Shown: one piece after another, positions 12,454-36,978 of the stretch
Layout of the letters: each line of letters opens with the position of its first letter
How positions within the stretch are numbered: position 1 is the stretch's first letter
Virus record (IMG/VR): IMGVR_UViG_3300044612_000742
Coordinates: 1 to 38,066 of that record
Length of the DNA stretch: 38,066 bases
Source: a virus
Reading direction: 5' to 3' (one strand)
Translations under genes and position numbers: made by a program
The notes under the pieces: generated by a model
What the model was told of the DNA's origin: nothing
The model's input: the letters and a program-made list of their open reading frames with translations, nothing else
Databases searched by the model: none

Positions 12454-13958
12454 ACCGATCGCGCCCCTAGTGATCCTGATGCGGCTGGCCTGATCAAGAA
12501 GTTGTAGGTGTTGAGGTTCGACTTGCTCATGGTGTCGGCACCGACAGTGCCGTTTGGGCCACCAGTATTGGTGGCGTGGACCACCTTTGCCTTCTCCCCG
12601 TCCCACCCATCGAAGAAGGCAATATGGCCGCTTCTGCCACTTGGGGAGTTGACTCGCAGCAAGAGATCTCCGGGCTGAGCATACTGTCGGTACTCGTCGT
12701 AGGAATTCACCCCAGAGACCACCAAAGCCATCTTTCTCTTCCACCCTGCTTTGGCGTTCTCAGCGTGGATGGACGAGGTCGAACCCGGGCCGGGAAGGAC
12801 ATCAGAGGCGCCGCAGTCCTTGTACGCCATGGATACGAAGCCAGAGCAGTCGTAGCCCTTCGGGCCGATGCGATTATTCGGAGAAGAGTAGAACACGCCG
12901 GGGACGGATGCGCGCTGCTTGGCAGCAGCAAGGGTGGCGGCCTGCAGGCTGGTGTTTGAGGGAACAGATACCCCATTGGCTCCAGTGACTGCTGCGTCGG
13001 CTGCTCCTACTCCTCCTGCAGAGTTCCTGTACGGAGACTCTCGCGGTTGAGCTGCATCAAGAAACGAGATTGCAGCGAGGGCATCGTTGTACCCCTTGGT
13101 GGCAGCCTTGAGCTGCTCGGTGGTGTACTCCTCGCTGTAGACCTGACTGTAAGGGACCAGCGCCTCGTAGTCGCCAGTCGATTGGTACGTGTCGAATCCG
13201 TACGCCTGCCTGATCGGGCCGAAGTAGGTGATGATCATCGTCAGGCTGACGATCATCCGGGTAGGGACCATGTTCCTGTCGAACTTGATGAACTGGACCC
13301 GAGCGTTTGTAGGGCGTCCTTGCACAGTCAGGTCTTTGGAGAAGACCACCGTGATGTCCTTGGGATTGGCCATCATGATGCCGTTGTCAGGGATACCTGA
13401 CGACCCGCTTGAGGGGGGCACGTTTCTGACCACCATGTCGAAGTACTTGTAGTCGTCAAGCACCCCCCGGGTGGTACGTGCCGCCGCTTCTATCTGCCTG
13501 TCGAACAGCAGGGTGAAGCTGAAGTTGACGAAACTGGGGGCGACGATCAGGTTGCCGGAGTTGTAGACCGTGTTGAAGGGGTCCAGCGCTGCCTGATCTA
13601 GGTAGCTCACGTAATCCCTGACGATCTCTGTCGGGTTGTACATGAAGTTCAGGCTGGCCAGACTCATTGAGTCCCCAGAGTCTGGTGAGCTTCTCCTGAT
13701 GAACCCCCGGGTGATCTTGAGTCGGCTCTGGTTGGGGGTCAGTCGTCCAGCAGTAGAAGTCGAGAACTTCGGGTTGGTAGGGCCGTTTCTCCGCAGGAAG
13801 TCGTCTACTGCTTGGGAGGCACCTCCCAAGCCTGACTTGAGTTCCCCATAGGCAACCTTGTACCCCAGCGTGTTGGTTACGTCATCCCAGTAAGTCTTCT
13901 CGTATGTCTTGGGGTTAGCGGGAGAGTACTGGTTGACTCTGGTAGGTACGATCGTCAT
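12450..13958 (-). CDS. Tube-baseplate adaptor with C-terminal NlpC/P60 peptidase
   Basis: The 502-aa product starts at ATG 13958 in a TAATG overlap with the tape measure stop. Residues about 78-250 contain LNFMYNPTEIVRDYVSYLD and NFSFTLLFDRQ, the 'F.YNPTE' start and strand pattern of contractile-injection-system tube/adaptor proteins. Residues about 340-490 are an NlpC/P60 domain: Cys371 in YDCSGFVSMAY, His445 in SGHIAFFDG and a third polar residue at His461 (VVHATN). This is the Cys-His-His triad of gamma-D-Glu-diamino-acid endopeptidases that cut peptidoglycan stems. An Ala/Gly linker (about 300-345) joins the two. The fusion puts a wall-cutting enzyme at the tail tip. Function as a peptidase is inferred from intact motifs. 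Confidence 0.85.
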   Translation of the reverse strand: MTIVPTRVNQYSPANPKTYEKTYWDDVTNTLGYKVAYGELKSGLGGASQAVDDFLRRNGPTNPKFSTSTAGRLTPNQSRLKITRGFIRRSSPDSGDSMSLASLNFMYNPTEIVRDYVSYLDQAALDPFNTVYNSGNLIVAPSFVNFSFTLLFDRQIEAAARTTRGVLDDYKYFDMVVRNVPPSSGSSGIPDNGIMMANPKDITVVFSKDLTVQGRPTNARVQFIKFDRNMVPTRMIVSLTMIITYFGPIRQAYGFDTYQSTGDYEALVPYSQVYSEEYTTEQLKAATKGYNDALAAISFLDAAQPRESPYRNSAGGVGAADAAVTGANGVSVPSNTSLQAATLAAAKQRASVPGVFYSSPNNRIGPKGYDCSGFVSMAYKDCGASDVLPGPGSTSSIHAENAKAGWKRKMALVVSGVNSYDEYRQYAQPGDLLLRVNSPSGRSGHIAFFDGWDGEKAKVVHATNTGGPNGTVGADTMSKSNLNTYNFLIRPAASGSLGARSV

Positions 13959-16882
13959 TAGTTGCTCAAGTACTGGTTGTTGGCCATTACGGAGTTGAGG
14001 TGGTCAGCAATCACTTCAGCCACCCTGCGGGCGTCCGCCTCCCCGCCAGCGACGTTCAAGTTGAAGCTGTTGTTGATCACAACTGGGGTAGAGCTGACAT
14101 TTGCGGTCAGTGACCCTTGAGAGACCGGGGCTGCAACTACCGAGGGAACCATGACCTGAGGGCTGTACTTTGCCATTGAGGCAACATCGCCCACAGCAGC
14201 TGAGCGACGGCTGCGAGGGTCGCCGACCATTCCCGCCTGTTTGGCTACTTGATACACAGGATCGACAAACGGAGCGGCGCTTGTGTTCTTCCAGACTGAC
14301 CACGGCCTCCAGTTAGCTCCCCCGTTAGACACATACCACGCTGCCCGAGCATTGGTGAATGGATCGAACAGCTCGTCGTCAGATTTCAGCCCAAGCGCCC
14401 GGCGCCTGTCAGGACCCCCCGCTGCCTTAGTCATGTTGATTTGCCATAGACCGTGGCTATCTTCGCCCTTCGTGTTGTGCGCTCTTGGGTTCCATGTGGA
14501 TTCTGCGCCAGCCACTGCTCCCGCAATAACTAGGTTGTCTCCACTGAATCCTGCAGATCGAGCGGCTCGCAGTGCAGCCAGAATTGCTGGCTGCTGCCCT
14601 GATGCGTCGACACCTCTTACTGAGCCTGAAACACCCATTCTCTGGTAGATGTTGCGAACACTGGCAGGGGCATATGCACCCCCTCCAAAGACCGGGCCGA
14701 GTGCTCCAAATTCACCTGCGTTGATGCCGCCTGAGGAGCGTTGCGAGTAGTCGACGCTTGACTTGACGGGAGACTTCTTTGCCCCACCTGCGCCCAACCA
14801 TCCAGCGATGGCGTCTATCAAGCCCTCACCACCTCCACCAAGAGGTAGGCCGGTGATCTTACCGATAGCTCCAAGAGCTTTGTCTTTCAGGGACCCAATG
14901 TCGAACAGCCCGCCGTCCCCGAACAGCGCTGAGAAGTCTCCGCTGAAGGCTTTCTTGATCCCTCCGAAGACATCCATGAACATGGAAGCCACATTCTGGA
15001 GAGCGTCAAGGCCCGGCACCTGATCGGCAATCCAGCCGCCAGCACCGCCGCCGCCGCCGCCCGGCCCGGCAAGGAAATCTCCAATGATGTTTGCGACCGG
15101 CCCAATGACGGGGACTACGTTGACCACGTCGGGTACGGGGTCGCCGACGGGGACAGTACCCGGCATGCCGACGTGCCACGGCTCATCGTGATTCAGGCCG
15201 CTCTCCAGACCAAACCTTCCGGCGTTGGCTGCGATCCACCCCATCTCTGACTCAGGGCCAAGGTCGGCGGCCAACCCACGACCGTGCATCGACTGCCCCG
15301 GAGGAGCGACCATGCCAACTCCGGCTTCATACAGTCTTCCCTGCAGGGCGCCGTCCCTGAAGCCGGATGTGATCTGCAGCCGGGGGTTGGCGTCCATCAT
15401 GGCTTCCAGCCTGCGGGAGAAGCTCGGGTCCATGTGAGCCGTCGTGGTCCCTCCGTACACTCCGTACCCTGCGGAGGCATCTCCGATCAGTGCCCGACCC
15501 CTTCCTCGACGGCCGCCCCTTCTCCCGCCGGGGTCACCGACCGGTCCTCTACCGCCTCCTCCGAAGAAGAAGGAGGCTAGAGAACTAGCGACGTTGGTCG
15601 ACATCCCCAACCCCCCGTTGACCAACAGGTTGGCCAGCGGGGTCGGAATCCTCGACACGAGGTCTCCTCCAAAGGCCCCCAACACGGTGCCGAGGCCCCT
15701 GTCGATCTGGCCCAGAGCGGCCTCGAAGTACCGATCTGTGCCTTCACGGGTGTTGAAGTCTTCGTAGTTCGACGCAGATCCGAGCATCTGGAACTCTCGC
15801 CGTCCCTGCGCCGTCTGGGTGCGGAGCCGGGACATCGCCAGATCAGGCCCCCGAGCCTCGATGATCGACACGAAGTCGTTCTTACCGGTGTGAGCGGCGC
15901 CGATGACGTACTGCCAGAAGTACTGCTGCATGTACTCCGGGACTCCAGTAGCGGAGAACCAAGCGTCCATGTTCGACCCGGGGAACTGCTGGGTGATGAG
16001 TTCTTCCTTGGTGAACTTCTTGCCTCGCTGAGCGCCGGGTCGCTGGCTCTCGAACCACTTCAGGGTGCTTGTTGCCCATTCCGACAGAGTCTTGGGAATT
16101 GCCCCACTACCGAACCCGCTCATGGCCCCGCCGGTCAGCATGAGTGATCTCTGGTGCGTCTGGGTGCTGCTCAGGAAGTTGCCCTGCATGTTGACGAGAT
16201 CCGTCGCCCCTACTCCCGGGGTCAGGGCCTGCATCTGGCGAACGCCCTCGAAGAACGCCCCACTCCGAGCCGTGCCAAAGTTCCCGTACCCGATCATGGA
16301 GGCTTGGTTGATGGCGCCCAGCACGTTGTTGAGGTCGCCCTGAACCGGAGTGCCTTCTTGCAGTGCCTCGATCAACTGAGTGATGGTCTTGCCACTCAGA
16401 GTAGCTGTCGAACCCAGCGCTGAGGCGATTGTGGGAGCGTTCGCCCGGGCCTCCTCGAACCTGCCGTACGCATACTTGATCGGCGCTTGGATGACTGCCG
16501 ACAGCATCCCAGCAATACTTGAGTCAGCGGTCAAGCTCCGAGTCATGGCAGCAAACGGATTGGCCTCACTACCTCCCGGAGCGCTGAAGTTGAACGGGAT
16601 GCCGCTGGATGTCGTGCCCCCACCACCGCCCCCAGCGTTGTTGAGCGCAGAGGCAGTGGAGTTGGCTCCGGCCTGCACCTGTGAGAAGATCCCGTTCACT
16701 CCCTGCAGGAGCTGCCCCTGCTGGGACGACATCGACTGCAGGGCGTTCTTGAGGCTGTTGAGTTCTGAGGTCACCGCTGCCAGCTGTGAGGCAGTCTTCT
16801 CCAGCCCGGGGACCTTGAACTCAAATCCTGACGCTACAGGGCGAGCCGCTTGGCCCACTCCTGAGATGTCGGGTTCAGCCAC
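13958..16882 (-). CDS. Tape measure protein with M15 peptidase and SLT domains
   Basis: The 974-aa protein starts at GTG 16882 with GGAG about 8 bp upstream. Residues 25-70 are a coiled-coil-like helix and 80-450 are Ala/Gly/Ser-rich helices. Residues about 484-575 form an M15 (VanY-type) peptidase: SGFR 506-509, His533 and Asp540 in SMHGRGLAAD, and His570 in EPWH; these fit the zinc ligands of the family. Residues about 764-870 form an SLT-type transglycosylase with Glu794 in AGAESTWNPRAHN and GLWQIN. Gly-rich hydrophobic stretches lie between them. Position after the chaperone genes and before the adaptor is the standard place. If about 0.15 nm per residue applies, the tail would be near 145 nm, an estimate only. 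Two lytic domains in one tape measure is notable. Confidence 0.9.
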   Translation of the reverse strand: MAEPDISGVGQAARPVASGFEFKVPGLEKTASQLAAVTSELNSLKNALQSMSSQQGQLLQGVNGIFSQVQAGANSTASALNNAGGGGGGTTSSGIPFNFSAPGGSEANPFAAMTRSLTADSSIAGMLSAVIQAPIKYAYGRFEEARANAPTIASALGSTATLSGKTITQLIEALQEGTPVQGDLNNVLGAINQASMIGYGNFGTARSGAFFEGVRQMQALTPGVGATDLVNMQGNFLSSTQTHQRSLMLTGGAMSGFGSGAIPKTLSEWATSTLKWFESQRPGAQRGKKFTKEELITQQFPGSNMDAWFSATGVPEYMQQYFWQYVIGAAHTGKNDFVSIIEARGPDLAMSRLRTQTAQGRREFQMLGSASNYEDFNTREGTDRYFEAALGQIDRGLGTVLGAFGGDLVSRIPTPLANLLVNGGLGMSTNVASSLASFFFGGGGRGPVGDPGGRRGGRRGRGRALIGDASAGYGVYGGTTTAHMDPSFSRRLEAMMDANPRLQITSGFRDGALQGRLYEAGVGMVAPPGQSMHGRGLAADLGPESEMGWIAANAGRFGLESGLNHDEPWHVGMPGTVPVGDPVPDVVNVVPVIGPVANIIGDFLAGPGGGGGGAGGWIADQVPGLDALQNVASMFMDVFGGIKKAFSGDFSALFGDGGLFDIGSLKDKALGAIGKITGLPLGGGGEGLIDAIAGWLGAGGAKKSPVKSSVDYSQRSSGGINAGEFGALGPVFGGGAYAPASVRNIYQRMGVSGSVRGVDASGQQPAILAALRAARSAGFSGDNLVIAGAVAGAESTWNPRAHNTKGEDSHGLWQINMTKAAGGPDRRRALGLKSDDELFDPFTNARAAWYVSNGGANWRPWSVWKNTSAAPFVDPVYQVAKQAGMVGDPRSRRSAAVGDVASMAKYSPQVMVPSVVAAPVSQGSLTANVSSTPVVINNSFNLNVAGGEADARRVAEVIADHLNSVMANNQYLSN

Positions 16883-18498: not shown

Positions 18499-20097
18499 TC
18501 AGGTCTGGATCTCAGCGGTGCTGCCGCCGTCGTACTGGGACACACGGATCACGACGAACTCAGCGGGGTACTCCAGTGCCACGCCAACCTCCATCCTGAC
18601 CTCTCCGGAGGCGATCACCTGAGGGGTGTTGACCGACTCGTCACAGATGACGTAGTACGCCTCTGCAGCTGAGGTACCCCGGAGACCGCCAGCGGACCAG
18701 ATGGGCCGCAGGATGTTGTCGGCGGTGAACCGCAACCGGGTCCACAGGCGCTCATCGTTGTTCTCGAACACAGCGAAGGAGGAGCCAGACTTGAGGCTCT
18801 CCTTGATGTAGATCAGGGTCCGGCGAGCAGAGACGTACTTGTCGACGCCGAACTTCTTCCGGGTACGGCCACCCATGATGGCGATCCCGGACCCGGGCAC
18901 CGGCCGGATCACGTTGATCTGCTGCTGGGCATTGAGCGTTGCCTGATCTGATTCGCTGAACCGGGCGTCCACGTTCACGGCGTTGGAGATGGACGCAATC
19001 ACCCCGGCCGGTGCCCGGAAGATGCCCTCAGTGGCGTCGGTGCGGGCGTACACGCCAGCCACAGCACCGCCCGGCGGAATCGTGATCGTGCCGCCCTGCA
19101 CAGCAGGGTCGTTGACGACGATCCACGGAGCGTAGGCCGCCACGTACGAGCTGGACTGGCCGGTCTGCACCAGCGGGACTCCCTGCTGGATCTGGCTGGC
19201 GTAGGCGGTGGCAGTCTCGCCAGAACCCCGGGGGGGAGCGGCGTCGTTGATCACGAAGATGTCAGTTCGGTCGCCAAAGGCCGAAGGCTCGATCGAACTC
19301 TGGACGAGAGTGCTTTGAGCGTCGTTGCGTCGGTGGGGGACGATGTTCACCACTACTGGACCCTCGATCTCGGCCGCCCCCTCCGTTGCCGCAGTGCGGA
19401 GGTCTACGTCTGTAGGCAGAGTGCCGTCAGCGCCACCCTGCAACTCCACCGGCCCGGCCGTTGCATCCGGCGTGACGGTGGTGTCGATGCCCGTCACCTC
19501 GATGTAGCGGGACCCGTAGACCTCGTCGTTGACCGCCACGTCGACCCGCTTGGTGCCGGGAACGTCACCCCGCACCGAGAGGTTCTGGAAGCGCTCGATC
19601 TCGACATCGTTACCGATCGAGTCCTTCCGGTACACGATCAGGGTGTAGACCTGTGAGTAGCTCCCCGCTTCGATGTCGACGCTGATGGCGATGCTGAGTT
19701 CTTCACCCCACTCCCCCGGGCTGGCCGCCTTGACCGTGAAGGCGTTACCAGCGTCGCCCTCATTGGGGCCAGAGTCGAACTCGCCCGCCACAGGGTACTC
19801 AGCGGCGGACCCGGTGGTGTCGTTGACCGCACGGGACACGTAGCAGATCCGACCCCCGTTCTGGAAGTAGCTGTAGACGGCGTACGGCAGGTAGCTGACC
19901 GATGCCCCTGCCGCAGGCTCGTAGCCCCCGAACCGGGCGACGTAGTCCGTCCACGAATCGCAGCGGACAGCGGTACGGAACGGGCCGCGAGCGGCACTAC
20001 CAGCGAACAGCGTGACTGAGCTGGCGACGCCGGACTCGTTCGGTCCGGGGAGGACCGTTTCCTCCAAGTAGACGCCGGGGCGGCGGTATGTGGACAT
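18499..20097 (-). CDS. Contractile tail sheath protein
   Basis: The product is 532 aa, start ATG 20097, with AAGGAG 9 bp upstream. The N-terminus MSTYRRPGVYLEE is the hallmark of phage tail sheath proteins. It continues with VTLFAGSAARGPFRTAVRCD and YFQNGGRICYVSRA. The C-terminal domain holds INVIRPVPGSGIAIMGGRTR, KYVSARRTLIYIKESLK and FTADNILRPIWSAGGLRGTS, the conserved sheath core that polymerises around the tube. Residues about 130-260 form a variable outer domain. Length is normal. Sheath followed by tube defines the contractile type of this phage. Confidence 0.96.
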   Translation of the reverse strand: MSTYRRPGVYLEETVLPGPNESGVASSVTLFAGSAARGPFRTAVRCDSWTDYVARFGGYEPAAGASVSYLPYAVYSYFQNGGRICYVSRAVNDTTGSAAEYPVAGEFDSGPNEGDAGNAFTVKAASPGEWGEELSIAISVDIEAGSYSQVYTLIVYRKDSIGNDVEIERFQNLSVRGDVPGTKRVDVAVNDEVYGSRYIEVTGIDTTVTPDATAGPVELQGGADGTLPTDVDLRTAATEGAAEIEGPVVVNIVPHRRNDAQSTLVQSSIEPSAFGDRTDIFVINDAAPPRGSGETATAYASQIQQGVPLVQTGQSSSYVAAYAPWIVVNDPAVQGGTITIPPGGAVAGVYARTDATEGIFRAPAGVIASISNAVNVDARFSESDQATLNAQQQINVIRPVPGSGIAIMGGRTRKKFGVDKYVSARRTLIYIKESLKSGSSFAVFENNDERLWTRLRFTADNILRPIWSAGGLRGTSAAEAYYVICDESVNTPQVIASGEVRMEVGVALEYPAEFVVIRVSQYDGGSTAEIQT

Positions 20098-23443: not shown

Positions 23444-25411
23444 TCAGTCAGGCACGCCGTTGTATGCAGGGTCCAGTGTACTGTTCCACGCTGCGATGGT
23501 CAGTCCTGCAGGCCAGTTATCGCCGCCGCCGGAACCGGCAGGGTCTCCGGGGAAGCCGCTCACCTTGCAGCCAGTGGTGTCGTACCAGCACCACAGGAGG
23601 GGAGGATTCGGCAGTGAAGCACAGTGCTGGATCATGTCGTAAGACCGTTGGGCGCGCTGCCTGCCTGAGTACCGGAAGTGCGAGCTGTACTCCAGTGGGT
23701 CTCTGGAGGGGTCTGGGGCCGGGACCAGAGAATCTCCTCTAACCAACCCTGTCTCTCCGTTGACCCACGGCTTGTTCCGCTCTCTAGCCATACGAGCAAT
23801 AGTCTCGATGGCGTACCAGCCCTGACCGTTGGGGTTCTCGGTCGACTTACGGTCTGTATACGGAACCACTACGTAGTCAGAATCGCACCAAAGTCGACAG
23901 ATGGACTTATTGGTGGCAGATGTCTTCTGCCCTGTTGCGTAGATGTCCCACCCCATCACGTCGTAAGTCGTCCAGTTGAGCGGGTACCACGACGCAGCTG
24001 AACCCTTACCTGTATTCCAGATGGTCCAGTCACAGATCAACGGCGCTACATAGAACTTGTGGCCTTCTGCTCTGGCTATCACGAACTTGTTGTATAGAGC
24101 AGTGTGAGCAGCCCTCCACGCTGCTTGCCACTCAGACGTAGACGAGAAGTGCTTACGCCAGTTGTATGCGTCAGTGTTTGACGTCTCTTCTGGCTCATGC
24201 CAGATGGTGCAATAAACCTGCTGTCCCATGGGAATGTTGGCCGTCAGGTAGTTGACAGCGTTGGTCGCCATGGTTTCCAACGCTGAGGGAGACTTCATGG
24301 TTGCCATGTCAGGCTTCCACGAGTCCCAGATGACGACATAGTTGTTCTGAGGGTCTCGTCGGCCCCGGAGGTCGGCAGGGATCACCGGCCCGGCATTACT
24401 ACTGGTTCCGTTGTAGGAGCGGACGACCCGAGGCACTCCCAGCCCACCAGCCATCTTTGTCTGCACCTCTGACCACGACTCGGCCCCATAACCCCAGATC
24501 GTCTGAGGGGGCGGAACTGGGGGAAGGGTCCCGGTGAGGGCTGCGATCGGCGCAGTGGTGTAGATGGCGTTGACTCCGAGGTCTGCCCACTGCTTCACCA
24601 GCGCCGGGGTGTCGGCGTTGTACACCCACACCTTCAGTCCAGCAGTCTTGATCGAGTTGATGATCGTGCCGGTCAGGAAGGCTGAGTTGACGAGGAACCC
24701 GTAGATGCCGTAAGTCGATGCTGCCGAGATGTCTGACCCCGATGGGGCAGCGCTGGCCCAGCGCTGTACGGCATACATCTCGGCGTCCTTCAGGGACTGG
24801 CAGTGAGCGTAGGTGTCGCTGACCCCGATGACCTGCTTCTTGGCCGCAGGGTTGGCATTGGCCCACGCAATGAGCTGGGGTACGGCATTGGCGTCCCGGA
24901 TCAGGGGGGCGAGAATCTGCTTGCCGAGCCACGCCGGAACGACTGACTTCGTCGGGTAGGTGGGGTTGTCCCAGAACGCTGCGGGCTGAGCGGCTCCTCC
25001 CACGGGGGAGGGGATCATGACTGAGGCCCACTGGGCCGTCGTGATGGACGAGACCGCTGTCGAAGTACCGAGCACCGACGCCGAGCTGTCAAAGCTCAGC
25101 ACCAGCTTGTCGACTCCGGCAGTGCCCGACAGCATGCGGAGATCCACGGCCCCGATGAGCCGGTCCCGCACAAGGTCCAGACGCGAGTCGGTGAACAGCT
25201 GCGAAGCCGCATAGAGCGTGTTGTTCGCCCACTCACCGCCTCCGAAGCCCTGCGCCCCGACGTAGCTGAGCGTCTTGAGGTCCCCGACGAGATCGGCCCC
25301 GCCCGCCCACGGCCACTCCTTGAGTGTGCCATCGGCGAGTCCCGTGCCTCCGGTGCCGATCTTGACCGTGCCGTCCGCCCAACCGGGGTTGAGCCACATC
25401 CGCAACGGCAT
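23444..25411 (-). CDS. Glycosidase-like tail protein with GDPD-like segment
   Basis: The 655-aa product starts at ATG 25411, 3 bp after the collagen fibre stop. Residues about 190-290 look like the end of a glycerophosphodiester phosphodiesterase (GDPD) barrel: YGIYGFLVNS, TAGLKVWVYNADTPALVKQW and DLGVNAIYTTAPIAAL. I do not see the usual 'HRG....PENT' catalytic start, so that part may be inactive or reshaped. Residues about 305-640 resemble a (beta/alpha)8 glycoside hydrolase: CTIWHEPEE has Glu406 in a 'W-H/N-E-P' setting (acid/base position) and WVNGETG has Glu553 in a likely nucleophile position. The two glutamates are 147 apart, reasonable for clan A-type barrels. It could cut a host capsule or wall glycan. 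Substrate unknown. Confidence 0.7.
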   Translation of the reverse strand: MPLRMWLNPGWADGTVKIGTGGTGLADGTLKEWPWAGGADLVGDLKTLSYVGAQGFGGGEWANNTLYAASQLFTDSRLDLVRDRLIGAVDLRMLSGTAGVDKLVLSFDSSASVLGTSTAVSSITTAQWASVMIPSPVGGAAQPAAFWDNPTYPTKSVVPAWLGKQILAPLIRDANAVPQLIAWANANPAAKKQVIGVSDTYAHCQSLKDAEMYAVQRWASAAPSGSDISAASTYGIYGFLVNSAFLTGTIINSIKTAGLKVWVYNADTPALVKQWADLGVNAIYTTAPIAALTGTLPPVPPPQTIWGYGAESWSEVQTKMAGGLGVPRVVRSYNGTSSNAGPVIPADLRGRRDPQNNYVVIWDSWKPDMATMKSPSALETMATNAVNYLTANIPMGQQVYCTIWHEPEETSNTDAYNWRKHFSSTSEWQAAWRAAHTALYNKFVIARAEGHKFYVAPLICDWTIWNTGKGSAASWYPLNWTTYDVMGWDIYATGQKTSATNKSICRLWCDSDYVVVPYTDRKSTENPNGQGWYAIETIARMARERNKPWVNGETGLVRGDSLVPAPDPSRDPLEYSSHFRYSGRQRAQRSYDMIQHCASLPNPPLLWCWYDTTGCKVSGFPGDPAGSGGGDNWPAGLTIAAWNSTLDPAYNGVPD

Positions 25412-29397: not shown

Positions 29398-30210
29398 TCA
29401 GCCCCCACTGGTGCCGAGAGTCGTCCACCCGTCAGCGGCCAGCCCGTAGTCCGGGTTGTAGGCCCCAGCTCCCTCGGAACCGCCCTCTTCTGGAGATGCC
29501 ATCTCCGCTGGGATCTCCGGGAACACCCGGACCGGGGGCCGGGGATCATCCACTTCACGGCCCCGGAACTCGGGCACGTAGCGGTTGGTGAGGCGGGAGA
29601 TGCGGCGCAGATCGAAGATGTCGATGCGCTCCAGCCCAATGTTGAGCATGGCTGCATACTTGGTGTACTCCGCCTGCCAGTACTGGAAGAGCTGCTGCAC
29701 CTGCTGAAATCGCATGTGGGCCGGGATCATCATGCCCTCAGGCGTCGACACGTCGATGTCGAGCGCCAGCTCGCTCATCAACGACCCGAGCGCAAGGCAC
29801 ACTGTCAGCACGGCCGTAGCGTGCTTCTCCTCGGTGGAGAAGTCGCTGAACGACGTCACATCAGTGCGGTTGTGGGTGTGCTCAGAGATGGCGATCTCAG
29901 CGTAGTAACCAAGGTCTTCAGGCAAGAACCACTCGTAGTAGTAGCCCTTGATCGAGATACCTTCGGTGATGCCAGTCACGTCAGTGAACCGGATCACCCC
30001 GTTACGGGTGTCCACGATGTAGTTGGCTGTGGGGACAGCGGTCCCCGTGGTGAACGCCCGTATATCAAGGGTGGCCACCATCATGCGGCTGAGCTTGACC
30101 GTGGTGTCGGTCAAGGGGGTATGGGTCTCCTCGAAGAAGGCCGGGAAGTCGCGCAGCATGTTGCGCGCCCGGTCGGCAAGGTTCGTCGGGGTGTCAAGGG
30201 GGACGCTCAC
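29398..30210 (-). CDS. Putative neck/adaptor virion protein
   Basis: I place the start at GTG 30210 (GTGA overlap, GGGAGG 3 bp upstream), giving 270 aa. An earlier start at 30240 lies inside the previous gene. The N-terminus ADRARNMLRDFPAFFEETHT is helical, followed by beta strands that include YIVDTRNGVIRFTDVTGI and GYYYEWFLPEDLGYYAEIAI. Then comes a long helical part (AVLTVCLALGSLMSELALDI, RFQQVQQLFQYWQAEYTKYA) and an acidic tail. A 'helix-barrel-helix' plan and position with two other non-fibre structural genes suggests a head-tail adaptor. I do not recognise a specific family. Confidence 0.6.
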   Translation of the reverse strand: MSVPLDTPTNLADRARNMLRDFPAFFEETHTPLTDTTVKLSRMMVATLDIRAFTTGTAVPTANYIVDTRNGVIRFTDVTGITEGISIKGYYYEWFLPEDLGYYAEIAISEHTHNRTDVTSFSDFSTEEKHATAVLTVCLALGSLMSELALDIDVSTPEGMMIPAHMRFQQVQQLFQYWQAEYTKYAAMLNIGLERIDIFDLRRISRLTNRYVPEFRGREVDDPRPPVRVFPEIPAEMASPEEGGSEGAGAYNPDYGLAADGWTTLGTSGG

Positions 30211-30827
30211 GGCCCTCCCATCGGGATGCCCAGCGTCCACGACGCCAGAACCTGCACACCACCGCTCAGGTGCGTCTGGGTCTTGCAGAAGCTCTTGGGA
30301 GTGCCGTCCTCTTCTTCAGCCCACACAGAGGCACTACGGAGGTCCCAGCGGTACCTCCCGCCGGGGTTGAGCTGCTGGGTGCGGTCGGAAAGGTAGTCGA
30401 CGTAGACCTCCGTCCCCTCCTCTTCTGGGTTGTACACCGCACGCACGTCACCAATGGCCCCGAGCGACGACGCTTGGTACCACTGCATGTTCGGCCGAGT
30501 GCCGTACCACGGGACCCACCCGTTGAAGTAGCGGATCGTGCTGAGGTAGGAACTCCGCATCTCGCTGAACCAGTACTTCTTGTCCCACGGAACCACGAGA
30601 GTCGTCGGAGACGGGTCGACATCTTCGGGGACGGTCTCCGACGTGTGGTACATGGGCAGCCCGTCTTCATCCTCGGGCCGCTCGGGCGTCCACACTCGGT
30701 TCTCCCAGAAGAACGGCCCGTCGTAGAGGTGGTCACCCCGAACGAAGGTGAGGTCTCGCCGCAGAGGGGCCTGCTTCCGGGATGACGACCCTTGCCCTGA
30801 GTCAGGAGTGCTGTAGACGGCCGACAT
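30207..30827 (-). CDS. Hypothetical virion protein, possible neck component
   Basis: The preferred start is ATG 30827 (206 aa); a frame to 30905 would overlap the upstream gene by 50 bp and has no better site. GGGAG lies about 13 bp upstream, rather far. The protein is rich in Trp, Tyr and acidic residues: FFWENRVWTPERPEDED, YWFSEMRSSYLSTIRYFNGW and VPWYGTRPNMQWYQASS. DVRAVYNPEEEGTEVYVDYL and GGRYRWDLRSASVW suggest a beta-sheet. There is no signal peptide. Grouping with the next two genes suggests a joint neck complex, but that is inferred from context. Confidence 0.6.
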   Translation of the reverse strand: MSAVYSTPDSGQGSSSRKQAPLRRDLTFVRGDHLYDGPFFWENRVWTPERPEDEDGLPMYHTSETVPEDVDPSPTTLVVPWDKKYWFSEMRSSYLSTIRYFNGWVPWYGTRPNMQWYQASSLGAIGDVRAVYNPEEEGTEVYVDYLSDRTQQLNPGGRYRWDLRSASVWAEEEDGTPKSFCKTQTHLSGGVQVLASWTLGIPMGGP

Positions 30828-30855: not shown

Positions 30856-33800
30856 TCAAGATCCTGTTGTCCAGAAGAGATCGACCGGAGTTTCGACGGT
30901 CCCATCGAACCATGTGATCTGCCCGATAGGAGTCTCTGGTCCGTTGAGGTTCTTTCGGGTCAACACAACAGGCTGGAGAACGTACTTTCTTGGTGTAGGC
31001 AGTTGGGGCAGTACTGCAACTACTTGAGTGCTGGCCAACCAGTCGGGGCCGTAAGCCTGAGGTTCTGGTACTACAGCAAAGCTTACAACGGCACTGAGAA
31101 CCACTCCAGAACCGAATAGCGGAGTAGGCAATGACGAGTTGGCAGAGACAGTGCTGGCCGACACAATCCATTGGCCAGTGGCAGCAGGCGCCGGAATGGC
31201 AGCAGACGCAACCACGACTGCAGGTACTACGTTGACCTTCCGAGTGGGGGTAGGGATTGAGGCGCTTACCTGTAGCCCGGAAGGAACCAGCCGAGACCCG
31301 GAAATCAGGATTGGAACGGGAATCTGAGATGTGGCTACCGCTGGCAGCGGCTGCGCTGTGCCTTGAGCCGAGACGAACGGAGCCGGGATACCTGCAGTAG
31401 TCCCAACAGCGCTCGGGGTGGCTGCCCCGCCACTGATCACTGATGGGGCTGGAACAGACGTGCCCGCTGCAACTATCGAGGCAGTGATCTGCATCGAGAG
31501 GGCCGGAGTGGGAGCGGACGAGACGACGGCGACAACTCCAGCCGCAATTCCCGATCCCCAGAGCGGAGTGGGAACGGCGGCTACTGCCGCTACAGCAGAT
31601 GGCCCAACCATCGTTCCCGTTACCCAGCTCGGCTCCGGCACCGAGACAGCCGCCCCCACCGAAGTGGGCAGCGTTCCTGCTCCCCACGATGGGGCTGGGA
31701 TTGTTGCCGTCGCTGCTACTACCGAAGGAGTGAGTGAGATTCCTGCAGAAACTCCCGGCGCAGGAATCGCAGCCGTGGCCGTAACGACAGCGGGCGCTAG
31801 TCCAGCTCCCCACAGTGACGCTGGGATAGCAGTAACTGCAGCGACCACAGAAGCAGGCGCAGTTGCCCCGGAGCTGGTCGTGGGAGAGGGGATGGCAGCA
31901 ATTGCTGCAACTGCAGCGGGAACTGTCCCAGAACCCCACGTAGGTGCCGTGATGCTGCTGGTGGCCGCAACTGCAGTAGGCAGTGGTCCGGCGCCCCACC
32001 CGGGTGCTGGAATAGTGCTAATTGAGGCAACTACAGAAACAGATGCAGTTGCTCCAGAGCTGACTGCAGGAGCAGAAATGGTAGTAACTGCGGTAACGGA
32101 ACTCGGGACAGCCTGCTGTCCCCACCCGGGTGCTGGTATAGCACTAACTGCTGCAACCGCCGTAGGCAGTGTCCCAGAATTGATCAGGGGCTGAAGGATG
32201 GCCGTAACTGCTGCGACTGCAGTAGGTAGGGTTCCAGATCCCCACGTAGGTGCTGGGATGCTACTGGTGGCTGCGACCGACTCCGGCGAGATGATGACAT
32301 CTGAGAACGCATCGAGCCAGCTGAAGAAGTTGGCGATGCCGGTGGCGTTAGTCTTTGCCCCTTCGTGATCGACGCCAGCCAACTCGAAGTAGGTGAGCTT
32401 CTCAGAAGAGATGACGCCCGGTGTCGGTGGCCCGGTGACGTACCCGACGTTCGTCAAGGCCGTGACCAGCTGGTCGTAGTGTGCGGCCTTGGTCGTCAGG
32501 TCGTCCGCTGTGCCGAACACGATGCCGATCGGGAAGTCAGGGACGACAGCCGCCTTGCCACGGTATGGCTCGTTGATCGTTGGCGAGCCTGATGCGGGGT
32601 TGATGTACTTGTCGACATCAAGCTCGCCGTAGACGGTGGTGTCGATAGAAGCCTCGGAGATAGCGTGACCAGACCGAGAGACCAGATACCTGCGTCCGAG
32701 GCTGATGACGATCCGGTTGGAACCGTTGGGCGTGAGCGTCGGGTTGACAGCGTTCTGGGGCGATACGACGGGGGCAAAGAGGAACATGCCCTTGATCGTG
32801 TAGCTGTTGTTGAGCGTCAGTGAGTTGCCGGAAGCGGTGATCGTGTCACCGTTCTGGCCAAAGTCGAATGGGTACGACGTGTTCGGGGCACCGTTGCTTC
32901 TGCCGACATGCGCTGGACGCTGGTGCCGGTTCGGGTTGAAGATGTCCCCAGCTGGCCATGAGCCGGGGTATATGCCGGAGTACGTCGTCGTGTCGCCCTT
33001 GGTGAAGGCCACGAACTGGGCGATCGAGGTGCCCGCAGAGTGGCCCGAGATGATCGTGTTGTCGGTGTCGATGTTGTAGAGGTTGGACTCAAGCTTGTCC
33101 CTGCGGAAGAAGCGCAGCGCAACCTTCACATCGTGAATGCCGAGCGGGAACGACGCCTCGTTGCCGTTCGACAACGTCGCCTCTGCGAACGCTCCCCCAG
33201 CAATGGCTTCGGTCAAGCGGTAGTCGACCGAGACGACAGCGATACCTCGGTCCAGCAGCTGGTTGACAAGGGACGATGGGATTTCGCTGCGGCTGCCTTG
33301 GGAGAAGAAGCCGCCATGAATCCACATGAACAGCGGCCAACCGGTCTCCGGCGCAGTACCGTTCGGGAGCCAGAGCGAGAGATTTCGACCGCCCGGCGCA
33401 GAGTTGGGGAGATCCTTGAACGTGAGCGCAGTGCCGTTCGTGTAGGCAATGCTGATCGGAGGCGTGGATGTCGGGGTCGGGATCGACGTGGCGGCGTTGA
33501 CTGGAGCCACAGTCGGAGTGGGATTGACGAGCTGCCGAGCGGTGACCAGTAGCTGCGGCCTGCGGGCCGGGGTGGAGTCGTCGTGTGAGAACGTGCGGTA
33601 GCGAGAAGTGGACGAGCCGGTAGGCCCGATCATCACGTTCAGGTACTCGGTGCTCTGGTTGATGGACGCCAGCGCCGCCACCACCGCAGCGGAGATGTTC
33701 GGGGAGGTGTTGGTGGCGTCAGCGGCGGCGCCAACGTGGGTCCACGCCACCTGAGCCGTGTCCCCCGAACCAGCACCGATGGATGCCCACAGAGTGTCAG

Positions 33801-34206
33801 GACGACGGGCACCAGAGCTGGAGAGTTGCGCTGCTGGCCCCTGCTCCACACGGATGGCCGTGGTAGCGGTGCCCCCAGCACCATCCAACGTCGTGAGCAC
33901 GAGGCGCACGTCCGTGATCGTCGTGCGGTCGATGGACGCCGGAATCTTGAACCGGAAGCCGGTCCAAGCGCCGGTGCTGGAGTTGGTTGACGTACCCGTC
34001 CACTGCCACGTCTGCGTTGACGTGAACGCAGCAGAATTGTAGGTGGCGTCGTCAGCCCCGGTCTCCTGCAAGATCGGCGGCTGCACGATGTCCGCATACT
34101 CGCCCCACGACGGTGCGGGGATGCTGACCGAAGCCTGTACGGCAGCAGGGGCGACCGTCCCCGGACTACCGGAGCCGCTCTGAGGGGCGAGCAGCGTCAG
34201 GAGCAT
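30856..34206 (-). CDS. Virion-linked alpha/beta-hydrolase (esterase-like) in a repeat array
   Basis: This 1116-aa protein starts at ATG 34206. Residues 40-225 look like a DNRLRE-type or related binding domain (FRFKIPASIDRTTITDVRLV ... PARRPQLLVTARQ). Residues about 255-640 are an alpha/beta-hydrolase: oxyanion-hole HGG at 297-299 (MWIHGGFFSQG), VVSVDYR at 324-330, nucleophile Ser390 in GHSAG, likely Asp568 in FGTADD, and His614 in GVDHEG. Order and spacing fit the carboxylesterase/acetyl-esterase class with the HGG motif. Residues about 645-1060 hold about 20 degenerate copies of 'AVAAVxxIPAPxWGxG', with two more copies before the enzyme domain (near 27 and 240). The C-terminus has a Trp/Pro-rich end. 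It likely removes acyl groups from a host surface polymer. Activity is not proven. Confidence 0.8.
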   Translation of the reverse strand: MLLTLLAPQSGSGSPGTVAPAAVQASVSIPAPSWGEYADIVQPPILQETGADDATYNSAAFTSTQTWQWTGTSTNSSTGAWTGFRFKIPASIDRTTITDVRLVLTTLDGAGGTATTAIRVEQGPAAQLSSSGARRPDTLWASIGAGSGDTAQVAWTHVGAAADATNTSPNISAAVVAALASINQSTEYLNVMIGPTGSSTSRYRTFSHDDSTPARRPQLLVTARQLVNPTPTVAPVNAATSIPTPTSTPPISIAYTNGTALTFKDLPNSAPGGRNLSLWLPNGTAPETGWPLFMWIHGGFFSQGSRSEIPSSLVNQLLDRGIAVVSVDYRLTEAIAGGAFAEATLSNGNEASFPLGIHDVKVALRFFRRDKLESNLYNIDTDNTIISGHSAGTSIAQFVAFTKGDTTTYSGIYPGSWPAGDIFNPNRHQRPAHVGRSNGAPNTSYPFDFGQNGDTITASGNSLTLNNSYTIKGMFLFAPVVSPQNAVNPTLTPNGSNRIVISLGRRYLVSRSGHAISEASIDTTVYGELDVDKYINPASGSPTINEPYRGKAAVVPDFPIGIVFGTADDLTTKAAHYDQLVTALTNVGYVTGPPTPGVISSEKLTYFELAGVDHEGAKTNATGIANFFSWLDAFSDVIISPESVAATSSIPAPTWGSGTLPTAVAAVTAILQPLINSGTLPTAVAAVSAIPAPGWGQQAVPSSVTAVTTISAPAVSSGATASVSVVASISTIPAPGWGAGPLPTAVAATSSITAPTWGSGTVPAAVAAIAAIPSPTTSSGATAPASVVAAVTAIPASLWGAGLAPAVVTATAAIPAPGVSAGISLTPSVVAATATIPAPSWGAGTLPTSVGAAVSVPEPSWVTGTMVGPSAVAAVAAVPTPLWGSGIAAGVVAVVSSAPTPALSMQITASIVAAGTSVPAPSVISGGAATPSAVGTTAGIPAPFVSAQGTAQPLPAVATSQIPVPILISGSRLVPSGLQVSASIPTPTRKVNVVPAVVVASAAIPAPAATGQWIVSASTVSANSSLPTPLFGSGVVLSAVVSFAVVPEPQAYGPDWLASTQVVAVLPQLPTPRKYVLQPVVLTRKNLNGPETPIGQITWFDGTVETPVDLFWTTGS
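31030..32274 (-). repeat. About 20 degenerate IPAPxWG repeats
   Basis: Residues about 645-1060 of the esterase-like protein repeat a unit of about 20-23 residues with the core 'xAVAAVxxIPAPxWGxG'. Examples: SSIPAPTWGSG, SAIPAPGWGQQ, STIPAPGWGAG, ATIPAPSWGAG, TSVPAPSVISG. Later copies drift (IPVPIL, IPTPTR, LPTPLF). The alternating hydrophobic pattern ending in Pro-rich turns suggests a stacked or extended stalk. The DNA copies share only part of their bases, so the array is old compared with the other repeats in this window. Confidence 0.85.
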
Positions 34207-34212
34207 GAGCTG

Positions 34213-34377
34213 TTACAGGAGGCTCTGGAGCTGAGTGATCGTCAACTCGGTGTCGGTGATCTCGGCGTCGAGTTCGTTGACCCGCTCAAGGTTGCCGATG
34301 GTGACGGCGTGGCCTCGCTGCTGGCCGAGGGTCGACAGCCGGTTGGCGAGGATGAGCTTGAGGTCGTCGAGGGTCAT
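34213..34377 (-). CDS. Small 54-aa coiled-coil-like protein
   Basis: This short gene fills the space between the 540-aa structural gene (ending at 34390) and the esterase-like gene. ATG at 34377 has GGGAGC 4 bp upstream, and TAA is at 34213. The sequence starts MTLDDLKLILANRLSTLGQQ and ends ELTITQLQSLL. Leu, Ile and Val occur at heptad-like spacing (NLERVNELDAEITDTELTIT), so a short coiled coil is likely. Similar tiny helical proteins beside fibre genes sometimes act as assembly helpers. That role is inference. Confidence 0.6.
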   Translation of the reverse strand: MTLDDLKLILANRLSTLGQQRGHAVTIGNLERVNELDAEITDTELTITQLQSLL

Positions 34378-34389
34378 CGGCGCTCCCGG

Positions 34390-36012
34390 TCAGACGAGGG
34401 GGATGAGTTCTTGGGTCAACTGCGACAGGTGCGACTGCAACAGGACAACGTCGTACAGGTCGCTCCCGTCGATCGCGGCATACGCTGCCATCCTCTGGCC
34501 GACCACTGCGGAGCCGCTCTGAATGAAGTCCGTGGCGACGTGCGGGGAGAGCACCCGATTCGCTGCGTCGAACCGGTAGATCTGCGACACCTGCGACGCG
34601 ACGTAGATGTTCATGTAGGTGTAGCGCCCCTCATTGCCGAACGGCGAGTGCGCTGCGGTGGAGCCGGTGGCGATGTTGTCCAAGCCGCCGTCGTAGGTGA
34701 CAGCGCCGGTCCACAGCGGCGGTGCGCCTGCGGTCGGGGAGCCGGTGCCGCCGGAGAGGTCGAGCAGGTCGAGCGTGGTCGTCGCGCCGCGGAAGTTGAA
34801 GCAGAAGGCGTGGCGTGCGTTGCGGGGCGTGTCGGGCTGGATGCCCCACGACGGTGCCCACACGTTGCCTGCGCCGTGGTTGCCGGGGGCAGCGGCGATC
34901 CAAGTTGCGTTCCAAGCGTTGGCGGCGATGGTCACATTGCCGGTGTAGGAGGCGTCAGAGAAGTTGTAGACGTAGGTGGCGGTGTTCGCCGTCGTGCGGA
35001 GCAGAACGAGGTTCGGCAGCTCAATGACGTACTTGGCGGTGGCACTCGGCTGGGTCGTCCAGGCCGCGCCGAGCGTGTAGACCGGCGACGCCCCGGCGGT
35101 GTGGTGCAGGATGACTCGCCGCTGACCGACCGAGGCGGGTGTGGTCGAGTCGGCCACGATGCGGATCTGGAAGTTGCGGTACTCGTTCGCAGCGATGACG
35201 GCGTCACCGCCGCTCGCCTGCCCGGTGAGCGTGCTCGCTGCCGATGCGGTGGCGGTGAGCGAGTTCAGGCCGGTGTCGTAGGTGAAGCTGCCCTTGACCA
35301 TGCCCTCACCGGGGGCGTGGTTGTGGGGAACGTACTGCTCGTCCAGCACCGTCGCTGCGGAGTCCGTCGTGATCGACGCCGCGAGGTTCGTGTTGCTGCG
35401 ATCAGCGTAGGTGTTCGTCGCCACCTCGAAAGAGCGGAAGGTCGAGGCAGCGAGCGTGCTGGCCCCCAACATGAACAAGCGGCCCGACAGCAGTTCGTAA
35501 CGGGCACCCGAGGCTGGGGTGAACGTGAACGCTGCGTCGACCGTGATCACCGGGGCTGTGCCGCTGGTGTTGGCGACGATCGACCGTTCTTCGGTCTTGC
35601 CGGCCGTGGTGTCGATGATCCGCAGGCGGTAGCCGAGGTCACCTGACCCGCCCCGGTTGGCGAGCATGTTCACACCGACCGCCGACGGGAGCGCCGTCGA
35701 GATGACCACCGATGTAGTGGTGGCCCCCGCGGCGATCGTGCCGACCGCGCCGAAGCTCGGAGCGAACCACGACGTGGACCCTGCACCGAAGGTGCCGCCC
35801 AGCGCAGGACTGGCGAGGTTCTGCCACGACTTCTGCACGATGTTGAATCGCCGCAGGGTCGTGTTGTTACCGAGGAAGTACACGAACGGGTTGCGCGTCG
35901 CGTTGTTGCGGAGGTCTGACGCCATACTCGCCCCCGCCGCATGAGCGCCGATGTTCGGCGTCGTCTGCGCCCACATCTGACGGTCGATGACCTTCTTGAA
36001 CGTGTTTGCCAT
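34390..36012 (-). CDS. Large virion structural protein, beta-rich
   Basis: The 540-aa product starts at ATG 36012, with AAGG about 11 bp upstream. It begins MANTFKKVIDRQMWAQTTPN and SDLRNNATRNPFVYFLGNNT. Then come repeated beta segments with 'GTFGAGSTSWFAPSFGAVG', 'GYRLRIIDTTAGKTEERSIV' and 'GRLFMLGASTLAASTFRSFE'. Two halves show a similar order: 'ANEYRNFQIRIVADSTTPAS' with 'RRVILHHTAGASPVYTLGAA' mirrors the earlier RLRIIDTTAGKTEERSIVANTSGTAPVITVD, so an internal duplication is likely. The pattern 'R.I..tt.g....R.i..ntsGtaPv.tv...' is common in environmental phage structural proteins, as I recall. It may be a capsid decoration or propeller-like fibre protein. No enzyme motif is seen. Confidence 0.75.
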   Translation of the reverse strand: MANTFKKVIDRQMWAQTTPNIGAHAAGASMASDLRNNATRNPFVYFLGNNTTLRRFNIVQKSWQNLASPALGGTFGAGSTSWFAPSFGAVGTIAAGATTTSVVISTALPSAVGVNMLANRGGSGDLGYRLRIIDTTAGKTEERSIVANTSGTAPVITVDAAFTFTPASGARYELLSGRLFMLGASTLAASTFRSFEVATNTYADRSNTNLAASITTDSAATVLDEQYVPHNHAPGEGMVKGSFTYDTGLNSLTATASAASTLTGQASGGDAVIAANEYRNFQIRIVADSTTPASVGQRRVILHHTAGASPVYTLGAAWTTQPSATAKYVIELPNLVLLRTTANTATYVYNFSDASYTGNVTIAANAWNATWIAAAPGNHGAGNVWAPSWGIQPDTPRNARHAFCFNFRGATTTLDLLDLSGGTGSPTAGAPPLWTGAVTYDGGLDNIATGSTAAHSPFGNEGRYTYMNIYVASQVSQIYRFDAANRVLSPHVATDFIQSGSAVVGQRMAAYAAIDGSDLYDVVLLQSHLSQLTQELIPLV

Positions 36013-36025
36013 GAGGCTGGGCCTT

Positions 36026-36469
36026 TCAGGTGATGCGAGCGCGGTGGCAGTCGGCCCATGCGCTCATGTTCGTGGCGTTGATGAGCATGGAGCCGTTGCG
36101 GCCGTCGATGTTCGTGAGGCCGGTGACCGTCGTGATCGTGCCGCCGCTGATGGACGACACGGTCGATACCGTCGTGATGGTCCCTGACTCGATCACTGCC
36201 GTGGAGCGCTGGCGGCGCAGAAGCGAGTCGAAGCCCGGCGGGGACTGCAATAGCATGAGCAGCCGGGACATGAGCGAGTGCGGCGTGCCGATCTCGGACA
36301 CCTGCAACGGGTTGGCGTCGCTGATGTCCGTTGCGGTCTTGGCATCGTCTGCGCCACTGAACGTGACGAGGCCGACAGCCTGCGCCTGAGCGGTCTCGCC
36401 GGAGTAGGACACCTCACGGGTGGCGACCTTCTCACCAGAGCCGGGCGTGTAACCGACATTGTCAGCCAC
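36026..36469 (-). CDS. Small virion protein, hypothetical
   Basis: This 147-aa protein starts at GTG 36469, with GAGGT 5 bp upstream. The opening MADNVGYTPGSG resembles the start of a group of structural proteins often found in marine and freshwater phage contigs ('MADNVgYTPGtG'), from memory. The middle has a helix with HSLMSRLLMLLQSPPGFDSL, and the C-terminal part is Thr/Gly-rich with STVSSISGGTITTVTGLTNI. No known domain. It lies between two other structural genes, suggesting an accessory virion component. Confidence 0.65.
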   Translation of the reverse strand: MADNVGYTPGSGEKVATREVSYSGETAQAQAVGLVTFSGADDAKTATDISDANPLQVSEIGTPHSLMSRLLMLLQSPPGFDSLLRRQRSTAVIESGTITTVSTVSSISGGTITTVTGLTNIDGRNGSMLINATNMSAWADCHRARIT

Positions 36470-36477
36470 GGGTCACC

Positions 36478-36978
36478 TCACGGCTGCGGGTCGATGGTGA
36501 AGATCACGTTGTTGACCGCAGGCGTGGTCAGATCAGCCCAGTCGATCGTGAACGTACCGCCACCCGACGAGCCGACGGTGCCGAACCTCACCGCCACGAT
36601 ACAGGCGTCAGCGACCGGGGAGGTGGCCCCGTCGTCGTAGACCACACAGCCGAAGACGTTGGAGAACTGGGCGCTCGCCCACGACACGGTCGAGGCTGCC
36701 GAGCAGACCAGCAGGCCGCCGTTGACCGCCCACGTCACTGTGCCGACGGGGTTCCCGCCCGTGGTGTAGTTCGAGCCGCCGGTGGGCAAGAGTTCGCCAG
36801 TGGTGCTGTACCCGAGGGGAGTGGTACCGAGCGGGTCCTGATTCATGGAGTCGTTGTACAAGGCGACCTTGATACGGTTCGTCGGGGTCGTACTGTCGAG
36901 GTCGATGTCGGTTGCCGACGCTCCCCATGCGGCGAGAAGGTTCGCTGCGTAGAGGCTGCTTGCTGTAGGGAAGGGCAT
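36478..36978 (-). CDS. Virion-type protein, beta-rich, hypothetical
   Basis: The 166-aa product starts at ATG 36978, with AAGGAG 9 bp upstream inside the end of the preceding gene. It opens with a helix (SSLYAANLLAAWGASATDID), then has RIKVALYNDSMNQDP and YSTTGELLPTGGSNYTTGG, a pattern seen in phage structural proteins with a small beta-sandwich. TFTIDWADLTTPAVNNVIFT closes the sheet. The protein has no signal sequence or membrane helix. Its partner genes on both sides also look like virion proteins. Exact place in the particle unknown. Confidence 0.7.
   Translation of the reverse strand: MPFPTASSLYAANLLAAWGASATDIDLDSTTPTNRIKVALYNDSMNQDPLGTTPLGYSTTGELLPTGGSNYTTGGNPVGTVTWAVNGGLLVCSAASTVSWASAQFSNVFGCVVYDDGATSPVADACIVAVRFGTVGSSGGGTFTIDWADLTTPAVNNVIFTIDPQP

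Follow-up and report, generated by a model that had tools for sequence, protein, structure and literature searches.

A Predicted Phage Fibre Protein with a BD-FAE-Like Esterase Domain Set in a Degenerate Repeat Array

The Repeat-and-Esterase Gene

The DNA analyzed here, hereafter the window, is the whole 38,066-nucleotide stretch of the virus record IMGVR_UViG_3300044612_000742 (IMG/VR, positions 1 to 38,066). It contains an uninterrupted open reading frame (ORF) for a protein of 1116 amino acids (aa), herein referred to as the repeat-and-esterase protein, in which an alpha/beta-hydrolase domain lies between short degenerate repeats. An earlier reading made from the letters alone (the sequence-only reading) had placed this protein at exactly the same coordinates, 30856-34206. 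The gene is located on the minus strand, and the plus-strand reading of this interval is full of stops. The following features were assigned to it (evidence in brackets).

30856..34206, minus strand: repeat-and-esterase protein, putative fibre, 1116 aa (ORF; PF20434)
34102..34158, minus strand: repeat unit 1, aa 17-35, ahead of the N-terminal domain (repeat anchors and profile)
33532..34101, minus strand: N-terminal domain, aa 36-225, no family match, beta-rich at low confidence (AlphaFold, profiles)
33457..33522, minus strand: repeat unit 2, aa 229-250, separating the N-terminal domain from the enzyme (repeat anchors and profile)
32287..33456, minus strand: alpha/beta-hydrolase domain, aa 251-640, BD-FAE-like (Pfam, AlphaFold, structure match)
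33310..33318, minus strand: HGG oxyanion-hole motif, aa 297-299 (sequence, alignment)
33037..33039, minus strand: Ser390, GHSAG nucleophile (sequence, alignment)
32503..32505, minus strand: Asp568, catalytic acid (sequence, alignment)
32365..32367, minus strand: His614, catalytic base (sequence, alignment)
32542..33009, minus strand: long insert between nucleophile and acid, aa 400-555, low model confidence (alignment, AlphaFold)
30988..32286, minus strand: array of 21 degenerate units, aa 641-1073, most of them 20 or 22 aa long (anchors and profile)
30859..30987, minus strand: C-terminal tail, aa 1074-1116 (repeat profile)

A near-identical copy was found in a second contig, G001 (L003; IMGVR_UViG_3300043464_000606). 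This contig has 99.87% identity to the window across 6.3 kb, shows zero differences in the first 829 codons of the ORF, and adds genes for the portal and the major capsid protein upstream.

The searches made gave no family match for the N-terminal domain (aa 36-225), the binding-like domain of the sequence-only reading. An assignment to DNRLRE/CBM96 was rejected, with no match to NF033679 or PF24517 up to E 10. The domain matched none of 198 Actinomycetota genomes at E 1e-6 in a scan that had no positive control. By inspection, the N-terminus has no classical signal peptide.

The Enzyme Domain

The enzyme domain is an alpha/beta-hydrolase with its Ser-Asp-His residues in canonical order: Ser390 in GHSAG, Asp568 in GTADD, and then His614. 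It scores 57.2 bits with the Pfam family PF20434 (BD-FAE), the cut-off of which is 26.8, and COesterase and Abhydrolase_3 are likewise above their Pfam cut-offs. The intact-looking hydrolase proposed from the letters is thus upheld, with HGG and all three catalytic residues where they had been placed. SGNH was absent from the Pfam scan up to E 1 (four families listed); the fold is that of an alpha/beta-hydrolase.

The HGG motif is invariant across the 19 rows of one alignment (A3), the bacterial rows of which were picked partly for HGG-type motifs. The triad was compared with 23 aligned bacterial ORFs shorter than 470 aa, 9 of them from Exiguobacterium, which had been chosen for HGG- and GxSxG-like motifs; Ser (selected for) is present in 23/23, Asp in 20/23, and His in 19/23. 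The insert at aa 400-555 has largely no counterpart among the short relatives aligned.

A structure was predicted by AlphaFold with 18 bacterial relatives. In this model, the hydrolase core, roughly aa 260-330, 360-400, and 560-640, is well predicted. Ser390 follows the strand 379-389, Asp568 follows 560-565, and His614 follows 604-609, as expected for a triad. The sequence-only reading had named a structure in which these residues do not come together as counter-evidence; at the level of topology, the predicted strand order is compatible with a common active site. Comparison with esterase families, also suggested there, gave BD-FAE as the nearest. The best solved matches of the core are 6xyc (Z 24.1) and 6tkx (Z 23.9), with a root-mean-square deviation of 2.8 over 247 aligned residues, and the next are Lip_vut4 and the GH43-CE protein 6mly. 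The same 6xyc and 6tkx are among the solved relatives found by sequence, where Lipase 2 and a para-nitrobenzyl esterase rank higher. The top matches among predicted viral structures are other esterases, the first from Siphoviridae sp. ctBLh2 (E 2.9e-8) and the third from Arthrobacter phage Seahorse; alpha/beta-hydrolases as such are therefore not new in phages.

To judge from its residues, the sugar-esterase domain is probably active. A catalytically dead, lectin-like hydrolase that only binds glycan would account for the large and unusual insert, which could close the active site, and for the remoteness of the domain from any characterised enzyme, but HGG and all triad residues are kept, and we regard this alternative as highly improbable.

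The Repeat Array

In total, 23 repeat units were recognised, with anchors set by eye: 2 before the enzyme, one of which precedes the N-terminal domain, and 21 after it. The presence of repeats on both sides of the enzyme, claimed earlier, is therefore confirmed. The earlier description of about 22 IPAPxWG repeats overstated their sequence identity, the signature being exact in only 5/23 units, with Trp in 9/23. Between anchors 650 and 1046 (20 units), each of the 19 spacings measures 20 or 22 aa. The last unit departs from this regularity, with its anchor at 1066 or 1069 and a spacing of 20 or 23.

A repeat profile was built from 189 units of other phages only, without the window; its consensus for the 20/22-aa repeat is ATASPAVVAATASIPTPTVSAG. 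This profile matches 15 units in the protein and 16 in the array alone versus at most 2 units in any of 200 array shuffles, which rules out chance repeats. An artefact of tandem duplication at the DNA level was likewise rejected: Tandem Repeats Finder detects no DNA repeat in the gene, whereas the protein repeat is clear. The G+C content at third codon positions (GC3) is 0.49 in the array (30988-32286) versus 0.80 in the enzyme and N-terminal parts. From the missing DNA repeat and the low GC3, we infer that the units have long diverged at the DNA level. The sequence thus suggests an old array maintained at the protein level. The GC3 of 0.49 looks as if synonymous codons had diversified, avoiding DNA repeats.

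No Pfam family exceeds its cut-off in the repeat region of the window; DUF7742 (PF24891) reaches 19.6 bits at aa 1029-1063 (E 0.001), under its cut-off of 27. Four repeat proteins, those of the window, L289, L273, and L266, were scanned with PHROGs, and none gave a match in its repeat region. Searches of the phage collection with the repeat, N-terminal, and L273 segments found no match, BLAST masking low-complexity sequence. In the AlphaFold model, short strand pairs recur with the repeat, most clearly in the first half, at a predicted local distance difference test score (pLDDT) near 50-60. A Foldseek comparison of this poor repeat model with PDB gave a best E of 0.11, the top rows being LpxD, LpxA, and GlmU, and was not used. 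These three are left-handed beta-helix enzymes.

Two isolated matches to the repeat were observed elsewhere. The Tail_P2_I-type tail protein of the window (4880-7750, minus strand) has a single weak match of 8 bits at aa ~348-362, and a match in gp92 of phage GiJojo (L004 32330-34690) appears fortuitous.

The Repeat in Other Phages

With pattern scans and a profile, arrays of this repeat were found in 26 ORFs besides the window and its variant, a set that is neither random nor de-replicated. A first pattern (WGxG...PAPxWG) had hit 58 viral stretches, none with an array, and these were discarded as chance matches. A looser three-unit pattern hit 43 stretches, of which 35 were examined by ORF and 17 ORFs were kept by eye; the rest were chance matches, other repeats, or CRISPR-like frames. 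The 17 include three pairs that look near-identical (L253/L262, L255/L292, and L278/L286). A third pattern hit 20 stretches with 15 new loci and yielded 10 ORF pieces with at least 4 units, not counting L304, which is a variant of the window itself, or an overlapping frame of L301 judged spurious. L297 and L308 adjoin each other on a single contig, their lengths adding up to that of the contig, and since they were counted once, 9 ORFs were added.

A domain with repeats on both sides was found in 7/26 ORFs (L266, L269, L272, L273, L299, L302, and L307). Only in L307 (IMGVR_UViG_3300028800_000427) is there a recognised enzyme between the repeats: its insert matches Apiosidase with 104 bits against 26.5 (GH140-like) as well as Collagen_bind_2, and its solved relatives are 4qfu and 3kzs. 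The L307 protein has one weak match in the phage collection. Among 20 inserted or N-terminal segments scanned, 3 exceed a Pfam cut-off, 3 have sub-threshold matches, and 14 have none. In L302 (2-4099, plus strand), the repeat protein is 1366 aa long and includes Collagen_bind_2, a He_PIG domain of the Ig-like type, and, between repeats, a domain without family match that contains a GFSRTG motif; a second esterase suspected from this motif was not confirmed.

By profile, terminase was found in 13/21 repeat records and portal in 7/21. In six of the other phages, the repeat gene is only a few kb away from portal, capsid, terminase, or tape-measure genes: it lies after the portal gene in L286 and L307, in the interval from portal to major capsid in L292, before terminase in L264 and L269, and before the tape measure in L289. 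A small protein of 166 aa is encoded upstream of the repeat-and-esterase gene. Homologues of it (E <0.001) occur upstream on the same strand in 5/15 repeat contigs, with a sixth in L267 at E 0.022, and in 4/14 further repeat stretches. In the control, comprising the ORFs of 147 loci and 18 relative stretches, only the window, G001, and a weak L068 (E 0.029) were hit. The repeat protein and the 166-aa protein therefore tend to travel together. No description of the 20/22-aa repeat was found in the open-access literature, which was available in part and was searched with little aimed at repeats. Tentatively, the repeat could be a display shaft, so far without a name, that many tailed phages have in common; its gene would lie among or close to the structural genes, often behind a small partner, and it would carry exchangeable glycan-binding or glycan-cutting domains.

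The Phage and Its Variable Locus

The window covers the tail and fibre module of the phage, with genes for the tail sheath, the tube, baseplate-hub-like and baseplate-wedge proteins, a collagen fibre, and the end of a tail-collar-like protein. The phage is uncultured, contractile, and a distant relative of the Streptomyces phages BRock and GiJojo; the best-listed sheaths of cultured phages are those of Streptomyces myoviruses, at 33-37% identity. Its host is probably an actinobacterium. The genes that matter for the locus are given below.

18499..20097, minus strand: tail sheath protein (phrog_23)
29398..30240, minus strand: putative neck protein, conserved beside the variable locus (homologues in relatives; no PHROG match)
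34390..36012, minus strand: 540-aa protein of the repeat-protein stretch (no PHROG or Pfam match)
36026..36469, minus strand: 147-aa protein of the repeat-protein stretch (no PHROG match)
36478..36978, minus strand: 166-aa small protein, related proteins being encoded upstream of the repeat gene in some other phages

The repeat-and-esterase gene sits in a same-strand run of genes from portal to baseplate, with a tail-collar-type fibre gene a few genes upstream. For comparison, 80 of 176 viral loci with related sheaths were fetched, and stretches of 18 records were compared. Ten of these span the locus, from the collar-fibre homologue to the putative neck gene; between the two, 9/10 have large unrelated ORFs, with one or more of at least 450 aa. 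The scan covered 19 locus proteins, 18 from relatives (one of 443 aa) plus gp76 of GiJojo. Matches over the cut-off are a glycosyl hydrolase in L153 (142 bits), the pectate-lyase-like tailspike of GiJojo with K1-lyase_C, a Laminin_G lectin (L156), two collagen fibres (L154 and L161), and a Gp80 fibre (L159); 4/19 have only sub-threshold matches and 9/19 have none. The esterase gene therefore occupies a site where fibre- or tailspike-type genes are exchanged. The four genes that occupy 30856-36978 of the window have no blastp match in the ORFs of the relatives. In none of these ORFs does more than one repeat unit score above 5 bits; a laxer limit gives two weak units in one ORF of L156. Because of these missing matches and arrays, the stretch looks like an import.

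This setting bears on two alternatives to a tail fibre. The protein might be cargo, an esterase that serves host metabolism inside the cell or after secretion and has no part in the virion. The esterase of phage Porcelain (LipC-like, phrog_3341 type), the nearest annotated one with context, is indeed free-standing among non-structural genes. The enzyme described here, however, is fused to a virus-recurrent repeat, lies within the portal-to-baseplate run, and has no classical signal peptide, so that cargo appears very unlikely.

Alternatively, the protein might be attached to the capsid or collar as an appendage of the head or neck, which would act on environmental glycans or biofilm and aid adherence or diffusion rather than receptor recognition. 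Its gene has capsid genes on one side and putative neck genes on the other, and the repeat proteins of other phages are often encoded near head genes, in varying places. The enzyme families of the arrays fit as well: GH140 is best known from plant polysaccharides. The same holds for BD-FAE (PMC8165983). On the other side, relatives have tailspike- or fibre-like proteins at the same locus, a tail-collar-type fibre gene is a few genes away, and the L289 repeat protein is encoded upstream of the tape measure. An appendage of this kind seems rather unlikely, although clearly less so than cargo.

Comparison with Known Systems

Cellular matches to the enzyme from an alignment-guided scan have only 27-40% identity, mostly over the N half; 80 of 362 were kept, and the best of those kept is a Phycisphaerae metagenome-assembled genome (L172). 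A single-protein genome scan gave no closer cellular relatives, and 0/396 Actinomycetota genomes reach E 1e-14 for the enzyme in a scan without positive control. Pattern-based viral scans found one viral relative; since they detect close relatives only, this is weak evidence of rarity.

BD-FAE (PF20434; 6xyc and 6tkx), a feruloyl/acetyl xylan esterase, is the best structural match and shares the alpha/beta-hydrolase core and the Ser-Asp-His order. According to PMC8165983, its triad is Ser128/Asp237/His269, and the Ser-Asp spacing of 109 in that numbering compares with 178 in the phage protein, about 70 residues longer. Unlike BD-FAE, the phage enzyme is fused into a repeat protein.

The idea of a fibre-borne ester-cutting domain is shared with the SGNH tail-fibre deacetylases, namely gp63.1 of G7C, gp66 of Possum, and receptor-binding proteins of Klebsiella prophages. 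These differ in having the SGNH fold and Gram-negative hosts, whereas the enzyme of the window is an alpha/beta-hydrolase. The SGNH fibre gp66 of Possum deacylates O-polysaccharide (PMC9569702), Klebsiella prophage fibres show p-nitrophenyl acetate activity (PMC13123978), and virion-associated lipases had been predicted earlier (Pires et al., 2016, cited in the review PMC5380687). Esterase fibres of the SGNH type are already established.

Phage alpha/beta-hydrolases such as the phrog_3341 esterases (Porcelain) and the models from ctBLh2 and Seahorse have weak N-half homology and a similar fold, but the Porcelain esterase, of 266 aa, is encoded by a gene of its own that lies away from the structural module. 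The tailspike gp76 of GiJojo, a distantly related myovirus, has a similar relative locus among capsid-to-tail genes; it differs in its pectate-lyase-like domain and K1-lyase_C, and its genome has no PF20434 match. L307 has the same repeat type, a sugar-active enzyme with repeats before and after it, and a relative of the 166-aa protein upstream; it differs in carrying a GH140-like apiosidase with Collagen_bind_2, and its contig has a portal and a terminase fragment.

The arrangement had been described from the letters as unfamiliar. The repeat itself recurs, with domains flanked on both sides in 7/26 ORFs and one of them GH140-like, so that the arrangement is not unique. What is apparently new is that a phage fibre of the enzyme-bearing kind has a BD-FAE-like esterase, on a repeat that other phages share and that is apparently unnamed. 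To our knowledge, it would be the first alpha/beta-hydrolase esterase on such a repeat shaft. No BD-FAE-type enzyme in a phage fibre was found in the open-access literature, as far as its available parts extend.

Proposed Function

Fold, triad order, and position at a variable fibre locus agree. The best reading, which we consider reasonably likely, is for this reason a virion fibre that bears an ester-cutting enzyme and belongs to a contractile, actinophage-like phage. The ORF, its fold class, the order of the triad, the array, the genes around it, and the presence of the repeat elsewhere were observed directly; virion location, anchored end, activity, substrate, and host are all things that we infer. 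The repeat array of 20- or 22-aa units would form an extended shaft, and the BD-FAE-like hydrolase would be an ester-cutting head set in it near the N-terminal end. As the fibre binds to the cell envelope or is dragged along it, the enzyme could free surface polysaccharide of its acetyl groups, or of acyl groups of another kind, through the acyl-enzyme mechanism usual for a Ser-Asp-His triad. Deacylation might then expose or reach a receptor, leaving the polysaccharide chain uncut. Of the earlier proposal of a fibre that deacylates host surface polymers, the fibre with an esterase is thereby retained; the substrate may be a polymer of the host surface.

Several results weigh against this reading. 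The PF20434 match covers only profile positions 4-113 of 215, the first half. The AlphaFold model as a whole is poor (mean pLDDT 50.7), with the N-terminal domain, the insert at 405-551, and the repeats not reliably folded. Many other alpha/beta-hydrolases, peptidases included, match the core at Z 20-22, and the fold alone therefore gives no substrate. The phage collection contains no homologue of the enzyme beyond weak matches, and PF20434 was found in 0/50 relative records, many of them short. In L163 (relative record G003), a large ORF is missing from the variable fibre locus, and in L266 and L299 the neighbours of the repeat protein look non-structural by eye.

In PMC9569702 and PMC13123978, the characterised esterase-bearing fibres are those of phages with Gram-negative hosts and have the SGNH fold. 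If the fibre reading is true, deacylation of surface polymers would have evolved again from another fold, which may matter for Gram-positive hosts. The repeat profile would be a sequence handle for cryptic fibres and plug-in enzymes in uncultured phages, because PHROGs miss the repeat region in the four proteins scanned and Pfam gives only the sub-threshold DUF7742 match in that of the window.

Other Genes of the Window

Three further genes on the minus strand were noted. The one at 23444-25411, after the collagen fibre, encodes a 655-aa protein with a sub-threshold GDPD match (E 0.0028) and no PDB sequence relative; its WHEPE and GETG motifs are reminiscent of a TIM-barrel glycosidase, and it is possibly a second enzymatic fibre. 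The gene at 12450-13958 encodes a 502-aa protein with a phrog endolysin match at aa 355-408 (E 1.7e-5) and adjoins the gene at the tape-measure position. The latter (13958-16882) encodes a 974-aa protein without PHROG match, the motifs of which we take to recall a VanY-type peptidase and a lytic transglycosylase.

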